Shown piece by piece: positions 16,287-25,402 of a stretch of DNA of 34,202 bases. This DNA comes from Chitinophagia bacterium (GTDB taxonomy: Bacteria; Bacteroidota; Bacteroidia; Chitinophagales; Chitinophagaceae). The DNA is taken from assembly GCA_021324175.1 (NCBI GenBank), contig JAJPJP010000238.1:1-34202 (forward strand), read 5' to 3'. The notes below the pieces were generated by a model. The model did no database searches. It was not told the DNA's origin and saw nothing but the letters and a program-made list of their open reading frames with translations. The translations under genes and the position numbers were made by a program. Numbering within the stretch: the stretch's first letter is position 1; each line of letters begins with the position of its first letter.

Positions 16287-18737
16287 CTATTCCGCTCGGA
16301 GACTATCCACAGGATTCGCAGTTGCAGCACGAAATGTCCTCAAAACAAGCACAAGCATTCCAACGATCATCATGGACACGCCGCTAAGAGCGAATATCCA
16401 CCAACTCAGTGTCGTCTTAAATGCAAAATCATCCAGCCATTTATGAGCGAAATACCAGGCGACGGAAAAGCCGATAACATATGCCAGTAGCATCAATTTC
16501 AACAGATTTTTTGAAAGCAATACCAAGATTTGCGAAACAGTCGCTCCCAGCACTTTGCGAATACCTATTTCTTTTACCCGACTGGCTGCCATAAAAGTTG
16601 CCAGTCCAAGAAGCCCGAGGCAGCTGATAAATATGGCAAGACCAGTAGCCCACTTTAGGAGAGTCGATAAGCGGATATCGCTTCTGTAAATATCTTCTGT
16701 CGCCTTGTCGAAAAAGGTGTATTCAAAATCTCTTTCGGGGTATTTCTGCTTGAATATTTTTCTAGTTCTATTTAGTGCAACCTGCCAGGAAGAGATATTG
16801 TTTGAATCCAGCAAAAGCGCAATTCTTCCGCCGATTGAGTTACTCGCCATATATACAAGGGGTTCCACGGGTAGATGCAGGCTTTGCATATTAAAGTCTT
16901 TCATTATCCGAACCACGGCGTAACCTTTCGGTAAACCGTAGAGGTTCACCACTGAACCTAAGGCATCGCTCGGGTGCTCAAATCCCATTTCTTTGGTCAA
17001 GCTGGCATTTGCCAAAACTTCGCGAAGGTTGCCGGTGGTATCGACATGTGCGGTACGCCCGGCAAGCAGTGAGATATTAAACACTTTAATGTAGTTTGAA
17101 TCTCCGTCTTTAATCGCAATGAGGTTGGTAAAAGTCTTCTTTTTTCCATGAAATTCAAACGTAGCGCGTGAGTTACCCTCGGCGTATGGCTCCGCGCTTC
17201 CATATGAAGTGAGATTTTGGATCTGCGGAATTTTTCTCAATTCATCGATCAAAACCGCTTGCCGTTTATCATCAAAGGAAATGAAAGGGACATTAAAATA
17301 CACAATGCCGTCCTTGCGCGCACCAACATCGGCATTCAGCTCATAATGTACTTGCTTCCCGACAATGATGACAATGATCAAAAATACTTGGGCGACCACA
17401 AATTGGAAGATAGTCAGTATTTCCCTCAATCGTCCTCGGCCGGGTCTCTCGGTATTTGCGGTTTGACCCTTTAATACAAGTGCGGGTCGAAAATTGGCCA
17501 GTACGAATCCGGGATAGAGACCGGCAAGAACTGTAACAAGTGTAGTGACGACGAAAAGAAAGACAATTATGCTCAGCTGAAAGAGGAGTCCCGCACCAAA
17601 TCCTTCGGGCAAAAAGCTAATGAACATCCTGATGACTAGAGGTGAAATCAAAAGCGCTAAAGTCGATGCAAAAAGAGCGACTACGAATGTCTCAATGAGA
17701 AATTGAAAAACAATTTGTCTTTTGACGCCGCCCAATGACTTCCGCACGCCGATTTCTTTTGCCCGAATGGTTGAATGCGAAGTAGATAGATTAATAAAAT
17801 TGATGACAGCAAGCAGAAGTAATATTACCGCCAGTCCGATAAGTTCTCTCAAAACCGATTTGTCGGCCCTGCCAAACACCAATTCACCATTTTGAGGAAT
17901 ACCAAAATGAATTTGGTTCAGAGGCTGCAAGGCGGCTGTAAACTGAAAGTTAGGATCTTTTACTCTCACGTGAGCGGCGTACAGCTTTCTTATTTGCCTC
18001 TCAATTCCAGCCACATTGGCGGTCTTATTAATCCGCAAAAAACAGTTAAAGCCATAATAATTGGCGTTCCAGTCATGGACCATGTAATTCCACCTCTTTG
18101 ATGAAGTAAATGTAGAATACGAAATAAAGGCAGTCTTATCGATATCGGTGTGCTCACGCAAATCAGCTACGATTCCTGTGACTGTTGTTATCGTGCTGTC
18201 GCCATATTGAATATTCTTGCCCATTATCTCATCGATGCTGAGTCCTGGAAAATACTTTTTGGCGACAGAAAGTGAAAGCACCACCTGGTTGGGTCTTGCA
18301 AAGGCAAACGTGAGTTGTCCCCGTAGCCATTCGTGCGGAAACATGCGGAAGTATTCTTCATCGGTGAAAACTATCCCGCTCTCATTGTTAAAGACGCGAC
18401 TCGGTTCACTATTTCCATGTAAAGGCTTAACCTGGAAATCAGGGCCCTGGAAAGATTTATAGCGACAGACCTCCGTCACGCCGGTGATCGTGTTCTTAAT
18501 TGCATCAGCAGCTGGGACAGGAACACCAAACAAATCCCCTTCAACGCGGTGGGCATTCAACCTGTAGATTTCGCTTGCATGTGGCTCCCATTTGTCAAAA
18601 CTATAGTCGTATTGTACGATAAGGAAAATGATGATGGAGGCGCTGAGTCCGACACCTAAACCAAGAACATTAATGGCCGAATAGATTTTGTTCCGGATAA
18701 GGTTTCTCCATGCAATCTTTAAGTAATGCTTGACCAT
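16287..18737 (-). CDS. Orphan FtsX/MacB-type ABC transporter permease (C)
   Basis: This is an 816-residue product starting MVKHYLKIAWRNLIRNKIYS at 18737, the family's usual N-terminus. TM1 lies at ~20-43 (NVLGLGVGLSASIIIFLIV). A first periplasmic MacB_PCD-like domain precedes the FtsX helices with AVINFINLSTSHSTIRAKEI and GVRKSLGG. A linker helix (FQFVVAQVFLIIVIIV), a second periplasmic domain and a last FtsX domain with VKEIGIRKVLGATV and LSWWIFALSG follow; the protein ends ATANPVDSLRAE. It is complete and probably functional. No ATPase is encoded nearby. The TonB-domain gene lies 77 bp downstream, and the scar with a TnpB fragment lies just upstream. A weak form of the shared upstream element is 74 bp before the start (18811-18827). 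Confidence 0.92.
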   Translation of the reverse strand: MVKHYLKIAWRNLIRNKIYSAINVLGLGVGLSASIIIFLIVQYDYSFDKWEPHASEIYRLNAHRVEGDLFGVPVPAADAIKNTITGVTEVCRYKSFQGPDFQVKPLHGNSEPSRVFNNESGIVFTDEEYFRMFPHEWLRGQLTFAFARPNQVVLSLSVAKKYFPGLSIDEIMGKNIQYGDSTITTVTGIVADLREHTDIDKTAFISYSTFTSSKRWNYMVHDWNANYYGFNCFLRINKTANVAGIERQIRKLYAAHVRVKDPNFQFTAALQPLNQIHFGIPQNGELVFGRADKSVLRELIGLAVILLLLAVINFINLSTSHSTIRAKEIGVRKSLGGVKRQIVFQFLIETFVVALFASTLALLISPLVIRMFISFLPEGFGAGLLFQLSIIVFLFVVTTLVTVLAGLYPGFVLANFRPALVLKGQTANTERPGRGRLREILTIFQFVVAQVFLIIVIIVGKQVHYELNADVGARKDGIVYFNVPFISFDDKRQAVLIDELRKIPQIQNLTSYGSAEPYAEGNSRATFEFHGKKKTFTNLIAIKDGDSNYIKVFNISLLAGRTAHVDTTGNLREVLANASLTKEMGFEHPSDALGSVVNLYGLPKGYAVVRIMKDFNMQSLHLPVEPLVYMASNSIGGRIALLLDSNNISSWQVALNRTRKIFKQKYPERDFEYTFFDKATEDIYRSDIRLSTLLKWATGLAIFISCLGLLGLATFMAASRVKEIGIRKVLGATVSQILVLLSKNLLKLMLLAYVIGFSVAWYFAHKWLDDFAFKTTLSWWIFALSGVSMMIVGMLVLVLRTFRAATANPVDSLRAE

Positions 18738-18853: not shown

Positions 18854-19039
18854 TTATCGAAGGAGCCTACTTCGGCGCCCTCGGTGGTTTTGAGAAATAT
18901 TTTTTGAGTGCTGCATGATGTTTTTAGCGGCATTCAGGTCCTTTTTATGGATTGCTCCGCATTCAATGCAAATCCACTCGCGATCGCTTAGTGCGAGTGT
19001 TTCATGAATTGCTCCACAATCCGAGCAGGTTTGAATGAA
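18854..19039 (-). pseudogene. C-terminal fragment of an IS605-type TnpB
   Basis: The minus frame ending at 18854 encodes, from about 19039, the zinc-ribbon and last RuvC motif of TnpB (OrfB_Zn_ribbon type): [19 protein letters not shown], then [18 protein letters not shown]. The two CxxC pairs are intact and the Asp of the final RuvC motif (KKDLNAA) is present, but the upstream RuvC-I and -II parts and the whole N-terminal domain are missing. Before residue ~44 of the frame the sequence is out-of-frame permease code. So this is a ~60-codon relic, not a nuclease gene. No TnpA and no left end were found. Confidence 0.85.
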
Positions 19040-19187
19040 ACCGATCGGTACTGAGTTCGAAACTGGTGAGCATATAGACAATAAAACAGGAAGTAATGCC
19101 AATCGCGAGACTGAGGATATTGATCGAGGTCTGCACTTTGTGCTTCCACAATTTACGTATCGCAACAAGCCAGTAACTCTTTACCAT
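19034..19187 (-). pseudogene. N-terminal remnant of an FtsX-type permease, cut by TnpB fragment
   Basis: From ATG 19187 on minus the frame reads [19 protein letters not shown], then [20 protein letters not shown] and [10 protein letters not shown], which is a typical permease start through TM1 and the conserved F(E)LS.DRFH segment. Directly after DRFH the family sequence (normally ..ADRIYR) stops and the TnpB zinc-ribbon code begins in another frame. About 50 codons survive. The join near 19034 marks an insertion followed by deletion of most of both genes. Confidence 0.85.
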
Positions 19188-19259: not shown

Positions 19260-20147
19260 TTAATTCTCGACGCGCAAACCGTTCTTATTGAACCTGATCA
19301 TCCCGGAATTCAGACCGTATTGCCCGCTAAGATATTTTTCATGATATTTCTTAAAAACGTCCTCAGGCTGTCGCACGCCGTTCACCTTCATTTCATCATC
19401 ATCAATCATGCACTCCCGGAGCTCACTACCGCTTGAAATAATTTTATCGCTGATCAGATCACTGGTAAGGTCCTTTTCCATCTTCTCCATCAATTTTGCC
19501 TGGGCTTTATTCTTCTCCGCCTGGATTTCATTGAGCCGGGCCTGCTCCTGGTTTTTTGCAGCCTGTATCTCATTTAACTTCACCTGCTCCTCGTTTTCCT
19601 TCTCCTGCTGCCGGTTTTTCTCGACCTGTTCTTCATTTCGCTTGACCTGTTCCACGTTGAGCCGTTGCTGCTCTTCGTTACGCTTGGCCTGCTCGATGTT
19701 TTTTTCAACCTGGATTTCATTGAGCCGAACTTGCTCACGGTTTTTTTCCTCCTGGATTTCATTCCGGCGGCTCTGTTCCCGGTTCTTAGCAGCCTGGATC
19801 TCATTTAACCGCGCCTGCTCCCGATTTTTTTTCTCCTGTTCTTTCATCTTTTGCCGGACGGAAGAGATAAGGTCTGCATATTTACCCCAGTTTGCAGGCG
19901 GAACTTTTTCGCCATCGATGGTGAGCTTGATCATTGAGTCACCCACAAAGACCACGAAATAAATCTTATCATCAGATGTAAACTGGACACGCTCCACCCG
20001 TTTGCCATTTTCGTCATCATAGAGATCATATTGACTGATGTCGGTGATGTCCTTCATGCGATTTTGTGCCTTCAGCGTGAAGGAGGAAAACATCAGGAGC
20101 AGTAAAAGCCCCTGTTTCAAATTGCTCAAATTCATATTCAAACTCAT
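19260..20147 (-). CDS. Secreted coiled-coil protein with Asn/Gln heptad array
   Basis: The 295-residue protein has a signal peptide (about 1-28, ending LKAQ), a small beta-rich domain at ~31-98 (VQFTSDDKIYFVVFVGDSM) and then 16 unbroken heptads, residues 108-219. In each heptad Asn is followed three residues later by Gln: Asn at 108, 115, 122 and so on to 213, Gln at 111, 118 and so on to 216. Alternate heptads read close to LNEIQAA and KNREQAR, giving a 14-residue super-repeat of high charge. The C-terminal ~70 residues (MKVNGVRQPEDVFKKYHEKY) resemble a tail motif I associate with Bacteroidota M56-linked proteins. The gene is third after blaI and the M56 gene, 151 bp downstream of the latter. 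The same heptad array is in the M56 protein, so a partner role in the periplasm is inferred. Confidence 0.85.
   Translation of the reverse strand: MSLNMNLSNLKQGLLLLLMFSSFTLKAQNRMKDITDISQYDLYDDENGKRVERVQFTSDDKIYFVVFVGDSMIKLTIDGEKVPPANWGKYADLISSVRQKMKEQEKKNREQARLNEIQAAKNREQSRRNEIQEEKNREQVRLNEIQVEKNIEQAKRNEEQQRLNVEQVKRNEEQVEKNRQQEKENEEQVKLNEIQAAKNQEQARLNEIQAEKNKAQAKLMEKMEKDLTSDLISDKIISSGSELRECMIDDDEMKVNGVRQPEDVFKKYHEKYLSGQYGLNSGMIRFNKNGLRVEN
19491..19829 (-). repeat. DNA encoding 16 N-x-x-Q heptads (secreted protein)
   Basis: This is a degenerate 21/42-bp periodic tract encoding residues 107-219 of the secreted protein. The protein period is exact (Asn every seventh residue, 16 times; Gln at +3, 16 times), while codons vary between copies. 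That argues for selection on the protein pattern and not for recent tandem duplication. Confidence 0.85.
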
Positions 20148-20298
20148 GTTCTTGATTTTTTAGATTTAGAAAATAGTTTAGCATTTCGTCACAATCTGAT
20201 GGCGACTGGCATGAAAAACCACTAAATAATGATTGATCTATGGCCGCTGGCTGCAGGGAGTGCGCAGTTCACATGCGTAAGCGGCTCTCTCGATTCGA

Positions 20299-21936
20299 CT
20301 AGTCGGTAATATTTGCCTGTGTCTTTCTTATTTCGTTTAATTTTTCAAGATCTGATTCCTGTTGTCTTAATTTTTCCAATTGCTCTTTTAAATTACTTTG
20401 TGTTTGTGTTTGGCTTGCAGCCTGCATTTCATTGATCAGCACCTGTTCCTGGTTCTTTAAGACCTGGATTCTATTGAGCCACTCCTGGTCAAGGTTTTTT
20501 GCCTCCTGGATTTTATTAAGCCTCGCTTGTTCTTCGTTCTTTCTGACTTGGACTTGATTCAGCAAAACCTGCTTCCTGTTCTTTTCGGCTTGGATCGCAT
20601 TTAACCGTTCCTGTTCCTTATTCTTTTCTTGCTGTATTACATTCTGTCTGGCCTGTTCCTGATTTTTTTCCTCCAGTTCCGCGCTGACTTTCGCCTGCTT
20701 TACAATAGGATTTTGTACTGCTTCACCCAGGTGGCTGGTTGTGGGCTTTTGTTTCCTAAACGTATGAGGCGTGACTTGTCCTGCATCCTTTGTCCTTGGT
20801 GTAATCTTAACAGGCGCGACAGGAACTGGCGCGATTGCAGCAATCGCAGCCACCGCAGCTCTCTCCACGGGCTGCTTAGCAATCTTGGCCCTGGGTTGCC
20901 TCGCTGCGACAACCGCGCTGGTTACGGAGATCAATATCGCGATCAACCCTCCAAGCAAAAATCCCTTTTCCAATCCCCCGAATTTTTGATGCCCGTTATT
21001 CAAAATACGGCTCACGCGCTGAAGCAATTGATTCTTTTTACCCGGGAAAGCCACAGCATAGGATCCGTCGCCGAATGAAAATTCCTTAAAACTGATCAGG
21101 GCCTCAATAAACTCACGTTTATTCCCAGTTTGCTCGATGGCCAGATCATCACAACAATTCTCACGTTCCTCTCTCAACAACGAAGACATCCAAACCAAGC
21201 CGGGATTAAAAAAGAAAACGGTTTCAGTGATGGTCTGCACCATGTTGACCAGGTAATCGCTGCGCCGAATATGAGCCAGTTCATGGATCAATACCGCTTC
21301 TACCTGTTGCGCGGGCAGGCCGGTAAGAAATCCCAGTGGTACCAGGATTACCGGCTTGATATGACCGATGACCATCGGGATGGTGATATACCCGGACTCG
21401 AGCAACTGCACCGCTTTAAAAATAGCAAGCCTTTGACAAATCCGATCGATTCTCCTCTGCCATTCTCCTGATGGCAAAAAAACACGCCGCCGTCTTGCTC
21501 TTTGAAGAAATAAGATTCCGCCCGTAAGTTTTGTCGCGCGATACAAAAACAAGATCAACCAGAGGCCGGTGATCAGGAGGGAATTTGAAGAGACAAAATC
21601 AGCCAGCGTACCCGACAGTTGATTGAGTGCCGGGATCAGTATTTTAAATCCGGAAGCTGGGCTGTTGCCTTGCTGATGAGTTGTCTTGGGTAAAAAACCT
21701 TCCAGTGAGAGTTGATTCCATTCATACATGAATGTGAGTACGCAGGCAACGAGGAAAAGCACGCACATGAAGCCGACCATGTTGTAACGCAGGGTCGATC
21801 GCGCCTTTCTGTACACGATTAAAAATGCCGCCGCAATCCCTGCAAACAGCAAACCCTGCCAGAGAGAATGGATCAGCATCAGGCTAAATGCCTGTATAAA
21901 ATGCTGTGCGGTTATTATGGAGACTTCAAGATGCAT
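20299..21936 (-). CDS. M56 (BlaR1/MecR1-type) sensor metallopeptidase with Asn/Gln coiled coil
   Basis: The 545-residue protein has the BlaR1/MecR1 membrane peptidase layout: helices near 20-42, 53-71 and 117-135, a cytoplasmic zinc peptidase with HELAH at 218-222 and the downstream acidic segment REERENCCDDLA at 255-266, and a last membrane helix at ~326-346. Beyond it, where staphylococcal BlaR1 has an extracellular penicillin-binding domain, this protein has an Ala/Pro-rich linker (350-415) and 12 unbroken heptads (Asn425 to Asn502 every seven, Gln at +3), then a short Gln/Leu-rich helix. So the input is unlikely to be a covalently bound beta-lactam. The peptidase presumably cleaves the BlaI-type repressor encoded 6 bp upstream. 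The downstream gene makes a secreted protein with the same heptads. Confidence 0.9.
   Translation of the reverse strand: MHLEVSIITAQHFIQAFSLMLIHSLWQGLLFAGIAAAFLIVYRKARSTLRYNMVGFMCVLFLVACVLTFMYEWNQLSLEGFLPKTTHQQGNSPASGFKILIPALNQLSGTLADFVSSNSLLITGLWLILFLYRATKLTGGILFLQRARRRRVFLPSGEWQRRIDRICQRLAIFKAVQLLESGYITIPMVIGHIKPVILVPLGFLTGLPAQQVEAVLIHELAHIRRSDYLVNMVQTITETVFFFNPGLVWMSSLLREERENCCDDLAIEQTGNKREFIEALISFKEFSFGDGSYAVAFPGKKNQLLQRVSRILNNGHQKFGGLEKGFLLGGLIAILISVTSAVVAARQPRAKIAKQPVERAAVAAIAAIAPVPVAPVKITPRTKDAGQVTPHTFRKQKPTTSHLGEAVQNPIVKQAKVSAELEEKNQEQARQNVIQQEKNKEQERLNAIQAEKNRKQVLLNQVQVRKNEEQARLNKIQEAKNLDQEWLNRIQVLKNQEQVLINEMQAASQTQTQSNLKEQLEKLRQQESDLEKLNEIRKTQANITD
20413..20667 (-). repeat. DNA encoding 12 N-x-x-Q heptads (M56 sensor)
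   Basis: This tract encodes residues 424-508 of the M56 protein. Asn is at 425, 432, 439 and on to 502, with Gln three residues after each and no break. The pattern is the same as in the adjacent secreted protein, and the codons are not identical between copies. Confidence 0.85.
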
Positions 21937-21942
21937 GTTCTC

Positions 21943-22338
21943 TTACTTGTCTAGCTGGTTTAACAGGTCTCTTATTTTCTTTAGTTCATCAGGGGATGTT
22001 TTGTCGTTGCCGAGCAAAGCCACCAAAAGATTGCTGGGCGAGCCATCATAGGTTGAAGCGATAAACCGGTCCAGGAGACCGCTTTTCACTTTGCTTTCAT
22101 CCAGTGCTGAGCGGTAAACATGTTTCATGCTGCTTTCATCGCGATCAAGCATTCCTTTTTCCCTCATAACCTGCATAAGCTTCAATGTCGACGTATAAAT
22201 TACTGCTTCCTTCTGTTCATTCAGGGTGTCGTGTACAAACCGCACCGTCGACGGGCCATGCTTCCAGAGAATCCTGAGCACATCCATCTCAGTTTTTGTC
22301 GGAACCACAGTTGCATTTAATTGATTTTTCTCTGTCAC
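21943..22338 (-). CDS. BlaI/MecI/CopY family transcriptional repressor
   Basis: The 131-residue protein is a full-length BlaI/MecI-type winged-helix repressor (PF03965 type): PTKTEMDVLRILWKHGPSTV at 13-32, then VHDTLNEQKEAVIYTSTLKLMQ covering the recognition helix region, MLDRDESSMKHVYRSAL as the wing, and a C-terminal dimer domain (LVALLGNDKTSPDELKKIRD) holding the usual protease-sensitive region. The start is GTG at 22338; an in-frame TGA lies six bases upstream, so no longer form is possible. It is the first gene of the operon with the M56 peptidase, whose ATG follows after 6 bp. A large dyad at 22348-22381 sits just upstream and probably serves for autoregulation. Confidence 0.92.
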   Translation of the reverse strand: MTEKNQLNATVVPTKTEMDVLRILWKHGPSTVRFVHDTLNEQKEAVIYTSTLKLMQVMREKGMLDRDESSMKHVYRSALDESKVKSGLLDRFIASTYDGSPSNLLVALLGNDKTSPDELKKIRDLLNQLDK

Positions 22339-22342
22339 AAAT

Positions 22343-22350
22343 CAAAGGTA
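22343..22350 (-). promoter_or_regulatory. Possible Bacteroidota -7 element of the blaI operon
   Basis: On minus the bases TACCTTTG fit the Bacteroidota -7 consensus TAnnTTTG and end 4 bp before the GTG start. If used, the message would be nearly leaderless. No well-spaced -33 TTG was found, so this is tentative. Confidence 0.25.
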
Positions 22351-22381
22351 TGTATAAAAAACGTACGTTTTGATAGTATAC
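22348..22381. promoter_or_regulatory. 34-bp dyad, probable BlaI-type operator
   Basis: A perfect 14-bp palindrome, AAAACGTACGTTTT (22358-22371), is centred between outer GTAT (22348-22351) and ATAC (22378-22381) arms at equal distance from the centre. It lies 10-43 bp upstream of the blaI start, overlapping the likely promoter. BlaI/MecI repressors bind dyads in such positions, so autorepression of the three-gene operon is inferred. Confidence 0.55.
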
Positions 22382-22800: not shown

Positions 22801-22996
22801 CAACCCTGAATTCAGGCATTGAAAAAATCTCGGGACAGCTCAGAGTTGATCATACAATTTATCATTGCGCATTTGCCATGAGGACAAGAGACTCGATGGG
22901 TTGCCGATCAGATCCAATCAGTTTTTTTATTTACCTGCAAAGTGCTTATTTTATACTAGCAAAAATCTAAGGTTCTTCTCACCTAACAGCCCAACC

Positions 22997-25402
22997 ATGC
23001 TGAAAAGTTATTTCAAAATTGCTTTCAGAAACCTTTGGAGGAAAAGGGCCTATTCCCTGATCAACATTTCTGGCTTGGCGGTGGGAATGGCCTGCTGTTT
23101 CTTAATTTTTCTTTACGTTCATTTTGAACTGAGTTACGACCGGTACCACCAACGGGCAGACAGGATTTACCGGGTGGTTGGCGATGTGAAGTCTTCCTCG
23201 GAAACCCTGCACTGGTACGAGACGCCCGGTCCGTTGGGCAGATCGATCAAAAACGATTTTCCGCAGGTTCTTGAGGTGACCCGATTCATAAACGCCAGCC
23301 TGCTGATTAGAAAAGGCAATTTTAAATTCCAGGAGACTCATAGTATTTGGGCAGATTCGTCCATTTTTTCTGTCTTCGACTTACCATTAATTTATGGCAA
23401 TCCCCGTACAGCACTAAGCGAGCCAAATAGCATTGTCATGTCGGAGGCAGCAGCGTTAAAATATTTTGGACATTCGAACCCGGTCGGACAACATCTTTTG
23501 CTAACCGGTCTGGGCTTACCAGCTATCGTTACCGGATTGATGAAGGATATCCCGGAAAATTCTCACTTCAGACCGAACGTGCTGGTCTCCATGTCTACGT
23601 ACACGCATTCATTTCAACCGGGAGTAGAACAGGACTGGGGCAGTTTTCTGTATTCCACTTACTTGTTGCTGTCTCCAGGATCAGATCCGCTCGTTCTTCA
23701 ATCGAAGCTGCCGGCACTCATTCAAAAATATGAAGGCAGTGAATTGAGGAATAGACACACCCGCTATGATTTAAAGTTGGAACCACTGGCCTCAATCTAT
23801 TTGCATTCTTCTTATGGTGCGCCGGTAACCGGCAATTTGGACAACGTACTTATCCTGACGGCGATCGGGATATTCATTTTACTACTCGCCGCGGTCAACT
23901 TCATTAACATGAGCACATCGCGTTCGATCGAAAGGGCTAAAGAGGTGGGCATCCGGAAATGTGCGGGAGCAAGGCGTCGTCAGCTGATCGGACAGTTTCT
24001 CATAGAATCTATGCTGATCGCAACAGTTTCCTTTTTCCTGGCTCTTTCACTTTGCCAGTTTCTGCTGCCGCTATTCAACCAGTTATCCGGCAAAACCATT
24101 AGCATCGGCATTTTCGCGAGTTTGTCCTATCCTATCTGGTTATTGGTGCTTGGGCTGAGTATCGGATTGCTGGCAGGCGTCTATCCGGCAGTGGTCCTGT
24201 CTTCTTTCAAGCCAGTTTCTGTTTTAAAGGGTCGCTTTGTATCAGGTAGCCGCGGAGCCTTTCTCCGGAAGGCGTTAGTTGTAACCCAATACACGATATC
24301 GATCAGTTTGGTCGTAAGTACGCTCGTCGTCTACTCGCAGTTAAATTTCATGGAGCGCCAGCCGCTGGGCTTTGATAAGGATCAAATGCTGATCGTTTCC
24401 AATAACGGCGATCGCGGGACTCTGGCCTTCCAACGTGACATCGCGGCAATGCCTGCCGTGCAAGCTTCTTCTCTCACCTCATCGGTTCCCGGGCGTACCT
24501 ATAACGCGAGCGGAAATGACGTCTGGCCATCGGACGTTGAAAACAGCAAGGGTGAGAAACAGCAGCTCAACCTGGCTTATAATAATGTCGATGCGGAATT
24601 TTTATCCTTATACAAGATCAAACTTCTGGCAGGCAGAGATTTTTACAAGTCCGGTAATGACGATTCGACTGGGGTGATCCTGAACAAGACGGCCGCCCTT
24701 AGTCTGGGGTATTCAGAGTCAACCCTACAGCAGTTAATTGGGAAAAAGGTGCACGGCCAGGGAGATAACTTTTCCAGTATAGTCATCGGCGTCATGGATG
24801 ATTTTCACTTCCATTCACTAAGGGAACCAATCATACCCCTTTGTCTGACGACTAGCAGGGGGTATTGGCAATACCTGTCTGTAAGGATCAATACGAATAA
24901 TTTGGCAGCAACACTCAGTGCGATTGGTGACCAGTGGCAAAAGGCCGTGCCCAACAGACCCTTTACCTATTTCTTTTTGGATGAGGACTTCAATAGTCAG
25001 TATAGTTCCGAAGAAAGCTTTGGGCATCTTTTCATCTGCTTTTCCGCGCTGGCGCTTTTCATTTCCAGCCTCGGACTACTCGGCCTTTCCTCATACAATA
25101 CACTACAACGCACGAAGGAGATCGGCATCCGAAAGGTGCTGGGTGCTACGGTATCAAATATCGTCGGACTTTTATCTGCAGATTTTGTAAAGCTGGTGGT
25201 GATCGCGTTTGTCATAGCTTGCCCGGTATCCTGGCTCGCCATGCATCAGTGGTTAGATGGTTTTGCTTACCGGACGAGGTTGAATGTGAACCTTTTCCTG
25301 GTGGCCGGCGCCGGCGCAATACTGATAGCGTTATTGACGACAAGTATCCAGGCGATAAATGCAGCGTTGGCTAATCCTGTAAATTCCCTAAGAGCCGAAT
25401 AA
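22997..25402 (+). CDS. Orphan FtsX/MacB-type ABC transporter permease (D)
   Basis: Started at ATG 22997 (MLKSYFKIAFRNLWRKRAYS) the product has 801 residues; the frame is open back to 22865, but those 44 residues lack family similarity. TM1 at ~20-42 (GLAVGMACCFLIFLYV) is followed by LSYDRYHQRADRIYR, a first periplasmic domain, FtsX helices with AVNFINMSTSRSIERAKEV and GIRKCAGA, a linker helix (TQYTISISLVVSTLVV), a second periplasmic domain with LLAGRDFYKSG and GVMDDFHFHS, and the last FtsX domain with TKEIGIRKVLGATV. It ends ALANPVNSLRAE. It appears intact. No ATPase lies nearby, and the shared 17-bp element of permeases A and B was not found clearly ahead of it, which sets this copy apart. 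Confidence 0.92.
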   Translation: MLKSYFKIAFRNLWRKRAYSLINISGLAVGMACCFLIFLYVHFELSYDRYHQRADRIYRVVGDVKSSSETLHWYETPGPLGRSIKNDFPQVLEVTRFINASLLIRKGNFKFQETHSIWADSSIFSVFDLPLIYGNPRTALSEPNSIVMSEAAALKYFGHSNPVGQHLLLTGLGLPAIVTGLMKDIPENSHFRPNVLVSMSTYTHSFQPGVEQDWGSFLYSTYLLLSPGSDPLVLQSKLPALIQKYEGSELRNRHTRYDLKLEPLASIYLHSSYGAPVTGNLDNVLILTAIGIFILLLAAVNFINMSTSRSIERAKEVGIRKCAGARRRQLIGQFLIESMLIATVSFFLALSLCQFLLPLFNQLSGKTISIGIFASLSYPIWLLVLGLSIGLLAGVYPAVVLSSFKPVSVLKGRFVSGSRGAFLRKALVVTQYTISISLVVSTLVVYSQLNFMERQPLGFDKDQMLIVSNNGDRGTLAFQRDIAAMPAVQASSLTSSVPGRTYNASGNDVWPSDVENSKGEKQQLNLAYNNVDAEFLSLYKIKLLAGRDFYKSGNDDSTGVILNKTAALSLGYSESTLQQLIGKKVHGQGDNFSSIVIGVMDDFHFHSLREPIIPLCLTTSRGYWQYLSVRINTNNLAATLSAIGDQWQKAVPNRPFTYFFLDEDFNSQYSSEESFGHLFICFSALALFISSLGLLGLSSYNTLQRTKEIGIRKVLGATVSNIVGLLSADFVKLVVIAFVIACPVSWLAMHQWLDGFAYRTRLNVNLFLVAGAGAILIALLTTSIQAINAALANPVNSLRAE

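Follow-up and report, generated by a model that had tools for sequence, protein, structure and literature searches.

The operon analyzed here encodes a BlaI-family repressor, a BlaR1-like membrane metalloprotease of the M56 family and a secreted protein. On the sequences compared, we consider it probable that these form a BlaI-M56 switch with its sensor relocated to the separate secreted protein, which would dock in trans via a homotypic heptad tag. It lies in a window of 34,202 nt (the whole stretch of DNA analyzed; Table 1) from a Chitinophagia bacterium. Sequence comparison shows that the N-domain, helix and C-domain found behind the last membrane helix in one-piece relatives make up the secreted partner, while the split M56 protein has neither domain and terminates in a heptad helix whose flavour is that of the partner. 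Soil-dwelling relatives of Puia, Mucilaginibacter and Chitinophaga appear to have this split layout, and the rare helix pattern shared by the two proteins looks like a matching tag.

The operon and its heptad arrays

Table 1. Features of the operon within the window.
Feature	Position	Strand	Remarks
BlaI/MecI-family repressor	21943..22338	minus	GTG start; PF03965 E 6.5e-23
M56 (BlaR1-like) membrane metalloprotease P0002, copy L002	20299..21936	minus	545 aa; PF05569 E 2.1e-25
HEXXH zinc motif of M56, residues 218-222	21271..21285	minus	
M56-tail Asn-x-x-Gln heptad array, starts at residue 425	20413..20664	minus	12 heptads
Secreted partner P0001	19260..20147	minus	295 aa
Partner signal-peptide-like start, residues 1-27	20067..20147	minus	A-Q at end
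Partner N-domain (small beta domain), residues 36-82	19902..20042	minus	AlphaFold model; domain also in one-piece M56 tails
Partner single helix, residues 84-233	19449..19898	minus	AlphaFold model, block pLDDT 90-98
Partner Asn-x-x-Gln heptad array, starts at residue 108	19491..19826	minus	16 heptads
Partner C-domain, residues 234-295	19263..19448	minus	AlphaFold model; domain also in M56 tails and in a FecR-like protein (own genome)
BlaI-operator-like site AACGTACGTTNNNNNTACATACCTTTG	22343..22369	minus	directly upstream of blaI

The original prediction had described unbroken series of Asn at every seventh residue of the M56 tail (425, 432 ... 502) and of the secreted protein (108, 115 ... 213), and recounting found Gln at +3 in 12/12 and 16/16 heptads, respectively. 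Its remark that Leu and Ile are confined to alternate heptads holds roughly but not strictly. A chance origin of these runs was ruled out, given that the longest run of Asn-x-x-Gln heptads in 5000 shuffles of each tail was only 3. The array is no fresh DNA expansion either, because its Asn codons are mixed (AAT/AAC 8/8 and 8/4 in the two window arrays) and the 12 DNA copies found of the repeat share 60-79% identity with the reference copy. Nor was a recent duplication of DNA between the two window genes supported by copy identity, by exact shared DNA (at most 12 nt) or by codon choice, which for Arg differs between the arrays (AGR 5/6 vs CGN 12/12).

The partner is composed of a putative signal peptide, the N-domain, a helix of 150 residues that AlphaFold models as straight and in one piece, and the C-domain. 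At the A-Q end of the signal-peptide-like start, Q is invariant and A nearly so in an alignment of 26 partner rows. Pfam gave no convincing name for the N- or C-domain, and the weak matches scattered among these 26 partners were in part to coiled-coil families (Borrelia_P83 in 4/26, best 3.1e-5), while P0001 matched DUF2963 at E 0.033, under the cut-off. For the C-domain of one relative, L103, a search of solved structures returned only a TATA-binding-protein match (0.0065) and weaker ones, all of which we read as chance; Foldseek with the P. dinghuensis tail model gave 0 matches to PDB folds at E 0.001 (best DNAJB6b, 0.016).

We regard it as very unlikely that this protein is a tether, with its C- or N-domain holding the cell wall or outer membrane and its helix mechanically reporting envelope spacing or stress to the M56 protein. 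The helix would by rule measure about 22 nm, which is near the periplasm width as generally known, and operons of relatives include envelope-type genes (PF00144 serine hydrolases at L126 and L128; M28 and DUF4097 at L036 and L039). However, no lipobox was seen in the partner and no known wall-binding domain was found, the structure search just described lacked a PDB fold match at its threshold, and the genes downstream vary between lineages.

Split and one-piece M56 proteins

Profiles of the N- and C-domain made from 33 partners with the heptads excluded both matched 40/142 M56 frames, and a further 32 matched one of the two, with some of these frames being overlapping copies of one gene. Both profiles matched the M56 paralogue L004 of the same genome (1.4e-12 and 6.6e-13), and neither matched the window M56; the window partner has both domains. 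The split M56 proteins group in a single clade (35 rows out of 89 in one tree and 35 out of 107 in another; SH-aLRT 99) in trees that omit L040, whose M56 spans two frames in its assembly. The window operon shows the features of the split type, with a short M56 inside this clade, a gene for a two-domain partner downstream and the same heptad flavour in both.

Own domain and downstream partner exclude each other: among 74 scanned M56 proteins, none had both, 40 had only a domain, 16 only a partner and 18 neither (Fisher 3.3e-7), after a position or motif filter had set aside L123, L137, L145 and L197 and too little downstream DNA had set aside L122, L141 and the second L182 row. Exceptions are the M56 proteins of L038 and L041, which have a C-domain of their own plus an adjoining partner (fragmentary at L041). 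At L203, a one-piece M56 adjoins a secreted protein with N-domain, C-domain and a proline linker, and the partners of L037 and L045 have no M56 nearby. One-piece M56 proteins of L115, L116 and L164 have Asp-x-x-Gln heptads. Genome counts are lower bounds because the searches scored only part of the first-look candidates.

To judge from its sequence, the secreted partner has the look of an M56 sensor tail that became detached. The original prediction had proposed a ligand, inhibitor or tether; "detached sensor module" is the better description, the partner's two domains being those on many related M56 tails. Its expectation of a penicillin-binding domain at this end fits staphylococcal BlaR1 and MecR1, but the tails of the related Bacteroidota M56 proteins compared here carry other, unnamed domains. 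No penicillin-binding sensor domain was hit by Pfam in P0002 or P0001, and the NCBIfam models for BlaR1 and MecR1 align with the window M56 over the protease region only (best 73.9 of 400 bits, far under the cut-off).

The operator-like site, to which the original prediction did not refer although its range includes it, occurs once in the window and in none of 100 shuffles, and within it TACCTTTG fits TAnnTTTG, the -7 box of Bacteroidota. The own genome (assembly 88% complete), searched with up to 3 mismatches, contains one such site, before blaI, and a reversed control also gave 1; no further copies indicating a wider BlaI regulon were found in this assembly. By pattern search of the 33 pair loci, an operator with ACGTACGT precedes blaI in 30, is present with another base at L126 and L133, and was not found at L123. 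Perfect matches were present in 11 of 19 genomes, each as a single site at the split operon, and are missing from the other 8, to which Mucilaginibacter and Chitinophaga loci had led, because the spacing there is one base longer.

This arrangement would also suit a partner acting as soluble decoy or inhibitor that keeps the protease inactive by binding to the M56 heptads or to the signal, a role we consider distinctly unlikely. Being encoded in the operon itself, such a decoy would give negative feedback, and the conserved operator before blaI, the matched arrays and the single operator copy in the own genome agree with it. Yet the partner has exactly the domains absent from the M56 protein, and the split M56 proteins have no other sensor domain, so that the receptor would have no input if the partner were just an inhibitor.

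Matching of heptad flavours between tail and partner

Heptad flavours across loci comprise Asn, Asp, Gln, His and Ala, and the flavour of an M56 tail co-varies with that of its own partner after phylogenetic correction. Over 33 pairs, array divergence was 0.136 to the own partner vs 0.285 to other partners, with the own partner ranking first in 17/33 and within the top three in 29/33 pairs; the p value of flavour matching by within-genus permutation is at its floor of 5e-5. In several rows of this comparison, the truncated L040 core served as nearest relative. With L040 excluded, the array of the own partner was closer than that of the nearest relative's M56 protein in 22/32 pairs (p 0.0018) and closer than that of the nearest relative's partner in 27/32. 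Independent contrasts over 32 pairs at heptad position 3 gave r 0.88 for Asn, 0.86 for Gln and 0.80 for Asp.

The same agreement is seen when arrays are divided into zones at 56 loci (59 minus L267 and L288, which are without split M56, and L268, which stops at a contig edge). Combinations of tail and partner were D-D at 37 loci, ND-ND at 9, other-other at 5, N-N at 2, ND-D at 2 and D-other at 1, so 37/38 Asp tails come with a clear Asp partner and 0/38 with an Asn partner. Where the tail carries an Asp zone followed by an Asn zone (nine loci), the operon encodes two partners, one per flavour, and the Asn-only tails (window and L266) have one Asn partner each. Even with the N/D and Q columns removed, 8/9 of the ND loci have their N zone closer to the N partner, and 8/9 have their D zone closer to the D partner. 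The rule is broken at L036 and L040, whose M56 cores are 96% identical and which combine an N zone with a D partner only. Changes in N zone and N partner on starred branches of a tree that omits L040 were 2 in the same direction, 0 opposite and 1 without difference, to which no significance is attached because independent changes are too few (at most 3 to 4 usable zone changes). The original prediction of the N/Q stripe as a matching interface is well supported, if indirectly, by the covariation and by the two zones with their two partners.

It is unlikely, in our view, that the heptads are rigid stalks only, derived from a common inherited repeat, with flavours kept by old exchange or by selection on helix stability and no contact made through them. 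The arrays are highly charged and could exist as free single helices, to which the Ala-only hydrophobic stripe of the Asp type and the straight AlphaFold helix are also suited, and one-piece relatives join the same domains by other linkers, in L047 even by polyproline. Synonymous codon agreement in the 33 pairs slightly exceeds that predicted by codon usage (0.477 vs 0.443, p 3e-4), and own pairs have slightly longer stretches of exact shared DNA (16.7 vs 14.8), so some older exchange between the genes is possible. On the other hand, two flavours coexist in one operon with each partner nearly pure, something not accounted for by species-wide pressure; other heptad positions share in the match; and the window arrays differ in their synonymous and Arg codons.

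Proposed mechanism and known systems

Under the docking model that we favor, the helices of M56 tail and partner would pair lengthwise in the periplasm via equal residues at one helical position (Asn-Asn here, Asp-Asp elsewhere) with Ala or Val beside, so that the partner's domains would become the receptor's sensor. A signal on these domains would activate the M56 protease; cleaved BlaI would come off the operator before its operon, and expression of receptor and partner would rise. A single M56 protein would bear two different sensors in those relatives whose tail has both an Asp and an Asn zone. It is quite conceivable, though we do not go so far as to favor it, that polar heptad helices are orthogonal address tags by which each M56 zone recruits its own secreted sensor subunit, with some lineages having lost a zone and its partner together and others having shifted to Gln, His or Ala tags. 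If true, this would amount to a homotypic docking code that evolves in nature and yields multi-input receptors from interchangeable secreted sensors.

Among known systems, BlaR1-BlaI and MecR1-MecI of staphylococci and bacilli likewise have an M56 membrane metalloprotease adjoining a BlaI-family repressor, with the sensor after the last membrane helix and repression lifted by BlaI cleavage (PMC9834060). In those systems a penicillin-binding domain of the protease chain itself is the sensor, whereas the M56 chain of the window terminates in a heptad helix, with unrelated domains on a second, secreted protein. One-piece Bacteroidota M56 proteins (L115, L116, L146 and L164; L004 in the own genome) share the N-domain, a linker or helix and the C-domain, but on one chain and with no downstream partner gene in our scan. 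In the own genome, the FecR-like anti-sigma protein L055/L008, which adjoins a sigma-like gene, has a C-domain-like end (weak, E 0.34 in the first search) but belongs to other signalling machinery and has no heptad array.

The M. tuberculosis BlaR1 homologue is, like the split M56 proteins, a protease without a sensor domain of its own; its means of beta-lactam detection is described as unclear, a kinase has been proposed as substitute, and the passages considered here describe no secreted heptad partner (PMC9834060). How BlaR1-like proteases without a sensor domain sense is a question already raised for M. tuberculosis (PMC9834060), to which the split clade offers a testable answer, a sensor supplied in trans. 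A real heptad code would moreover provide specificity tags of natural origin, polar and built of repeats, in many sequence-diverse pairs, and could inform both helix pairing without a hydrophobic core and the building of receptors with several inputs.

Heptad arrays of the window operon

The operon under study encodes a repressor (BlaI), an M56 protease (P0002) and a secreted partner protein of 295 aa (P0001). The original prediction that the last two share an unbroken array of heptads with Asn and, at +3, Gln was borne out, as the pattern holds in 12 of 12 heptads of the M56 tail and 16 of 16 of the secreted protein, with a longest shuffled run of 3. Because both Asn codons are used in these arrays and the DNA copies match the reference copy at 60-79% identity, the heptad letters are held at the protein level. 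The frame antisense to the array is probably a by-product of the array's codon pattern. Permease genes lie on both sides of the operon, and the short frame at 18854 is what is left of an OrfB/TnpB-type transposase gene, apparently joined to an upstream piece resembling a permease start.

Features of the operon and its surroundings
Feature	Position	Strand	Remark
blaI	21943-22338	minus	
M56 gene	20299-21936	minus	
Secreted protein gene	19260-20147	minus	
Open frame, 184 aa	19408-19962	plus	antisense to heptad array
Permease	16287-18737	minus	MacB/FtsX-like, by Pfam
Permease	22865-25402	plus	similar-looking
Short frame	18854-19168	minus	end matches Cas12f1-like TNB domain (PF07282, 2.8e-10)

One-piece and split M56 proteins

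In a search of the window's own genome, the N- and C-terminal parts of P0001 matched the tail of an M56 paralogue (L004, contig C357), and its C-domain was similar to a second one (L005, contig C410) and weakly similar to a FecR-like protein (L008, E 0.34). AlphaFold models P0001 (mean pLDDT 88.6, pTM 0.42) as a small beta domain at 36-82, a single helix at 84-233 and a small domain at the C-terminus. Searches of Pfam and PDB gave no convincing relative of the N-domain or C-domain, and no description of secreted partners of this kind was found in the literature searched. Profiles of both domains, made from 33 partners with the heptads left out, found neither in P0002; among 142 M56 frames, several of them overlapping copies of one gene, they found two domains in 40, one in 32 and none in 70, many of the latter being M56s of the split type.

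In the tree, the 35 split M56s, putative products of receptor fission, all fall into a single clade (SH-aLRT 99), which was unchanged after adding 18 M56s that have no such domain and no partner. An 80-locus scan took the best 80 of the matches listed and therefore samples the neighborhood of P0002; among the 74 M56 rows that passed its filters, 40 had their own domain and no partner, 16 a partner and no domain, 18 neither and 0 both (Fisher 3.3e-7). Outside the scan, domain-bearing M56s do occur together with a partner-like gene (L038, L041 and L203). L203 (genome G021) arranges these domains in yet another way, BlaI being followed by a secreted protein whose N-domain and C-domain are joined by a proline linker, and then by a one-piece M56; in the one-piece M56 tail of L047, a polyproline linker replaces the helix between the two domains.

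Stand-alone partners are present in at least 10 of the 33 genomes of the window's genus; in these 10, they lie beside a short M56 in 6 loci (window, L036, L039, L040, L042, L044) and in 2 beside a longer M56 that has a C-domain of its own (L038, L041); no M56 was found near the remaining 2 (L037, L045). Family-wide, at least 23 of 294 genomes pass a cut-off of E 1e-20, a few of these matches being one-piece proteins or fragments, and in 17 of 20 family loci inspected a short M56 is followed by the partner gene. In the genus of the Mucilaginibacter pedocola genome, at least 35 of 149 genomes pass 1e-10. Split loci occur in Mucilaginibacter, Chitinophaga, Deminuibacter and Paraflavitalea, among others.

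Matching of M56 tails and partners

In other species the Asn position is taken by Asp, or else by Gln (L109), or is His-rich (L110) or Ala-rich (L113), the same in both members of a pair. Across 33 pairs, the Jensen-Shannon divergence of heptad profiles was 0.136 to the own partner vs 0.285 to others; the own partner ranked first for 17 M56s and in the top three for 29. Within-genus shuffles of partners reached the observed sum 0 times in 20000 trials, and orders as good as the observed one numbered 1 of 720 in Puia and 1 of 120 in genus g107 (the true order in both) and 24 of 5040 in Mucilaginibacter. With L040 left out, 22 of 32 pairs had the own partner's array closer than the M56 array of the nearest relative (p 0.0018), and 27 of 32 had it closer than the partner array of that relative (p 5e-5). 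Independent contrasts on the M56 tree gave p values, uncorrected for multiple testing, below 0.001 for 15 of 31 features and below 0.05 for 23, with the highest correlations at heptad positions 3 and 4 (r 0.90 for Arg at position 4; 0.88, 0.86 and 0.80 for Asn, Gln and Asp at position 3) and weaker ones at 5 and 2. Array lengths correlate as well (Spearman 0.57; 0.50 by contrasts), and in 31 of 33 pairs the partner has the longer array.

Nine M56 tails carry an Asp-heptad run followed by an Asn-heptad run, always with the Asp zone first, and in 9/9 of these loci the M56 gene is followed downstream by an Asn-type and then an Asp-type partner (both open in seven; at L261 and L269 the assembly interrupts the Asn-type partner, which was read from its fragments). 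In 56 loci, Asp tails had Asp partners in 37 and an unclassified partner in 1, two-zone tails had both partners in 9 and a sole Asp partner in 2 (L036, L040), Asn tails had Asn partners in 2 (window, L266), and 5 were of other types in both members. With the N/D and Q columns removed, each zone was still nearer the partner of its own type in 8/9 cases. Outside its array, P0001 is closest in both domains to two Asn-type partners, those of L125 and L128 (identities 29/66 and 31/57). Asn zone and Asn partner coincide by rows (11/1/0/42, Fisher 1e-10), the rows being related to one another, and on the tree just 5 and 4 changes are required; independent pairs on starred branches gave 2 same, 0 opposite and 1 without difference for Asn and 3, 0 and 1 for Asp, numbers too small for a significance test. 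Two Mucilaginibacter loci have a PF00144 (Beta-lactamase family) serine hydrolase with TPR encoded between the M56 gene and a partner gene (L126:5749-7287, L128:6740-8164).

Copying of DNA between the arrays would be another source of such a match. The window's arrays share at most 12 nt of exact DNA and differ in their Arg codons (AGR 5/6 vs CGN 12/12, p 7e-4). Over all pairs, synonymous codons agree between arrays at 0.477 vs 0.443 expected from codon usage (p 3e-4), with 0.464 and 0.482 within arrays, and shared exact DNA is slightly longer in own than in swapped pairs (16.7 vs 14.8; maximum 29 nt, L133). Judged from these sequences, the match does not look like simple DNA exchange; old or occasional exchange may have contributed, given the small codon excess and the slightly longer shared DNA.

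Origin, regulation and comparison with BlaR1

P0002 clusters with the Asn-zone M56s of the Mucilaginibacter group (L258, L262, L266; fork support 81/84), nested in a 25-row clade (99/99); the remaining split M56s of Puia in the tree (L036, L039, L042, L044) stand elsewhere. The window's operator has the TACATACC half, as in Mucilaginibacter and Chitinophaga; other Puia loci have a CGTACC half. The operon was likely acquired by horizontal transfer, and we infer that the window's lineage jointly lost the Asp zone and the Asp partner.

A pattern search found a ACGTACGT-spacer-TACC site in 30 of 33 pair loci, directly ahead of blaI wherever position was inspected; in L126 and L133 a single base of the site differs. 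Allowing up to 3 mismatches, the own genome holds a single site, at the operon (as many as the reversed control, 1), and 11 genomes have one perfect match each, at the operon. These sites suggest that the operon regulates itself and is the main target of BlaI, the putative binder of the site. At L048 and L142, a conserved upstream reading, MFVRKISYLY, begins the BlaI of some one-piece M56 operons, unlike others, hinting at a paralogue-specific operator.

If the Ala column took core position a, the Asn/Asp/Gln column would fall at d, a register that would fit side-by-side helices. By analogy with BlaR1, the partner could be a sensor supplied in trans to the M56 protease. In BlaR1 (PMC9834060), the protease cuts BlaI directly and the sensor follows the last membrane helix, whereas here a separate protein, the partner, would supply it.
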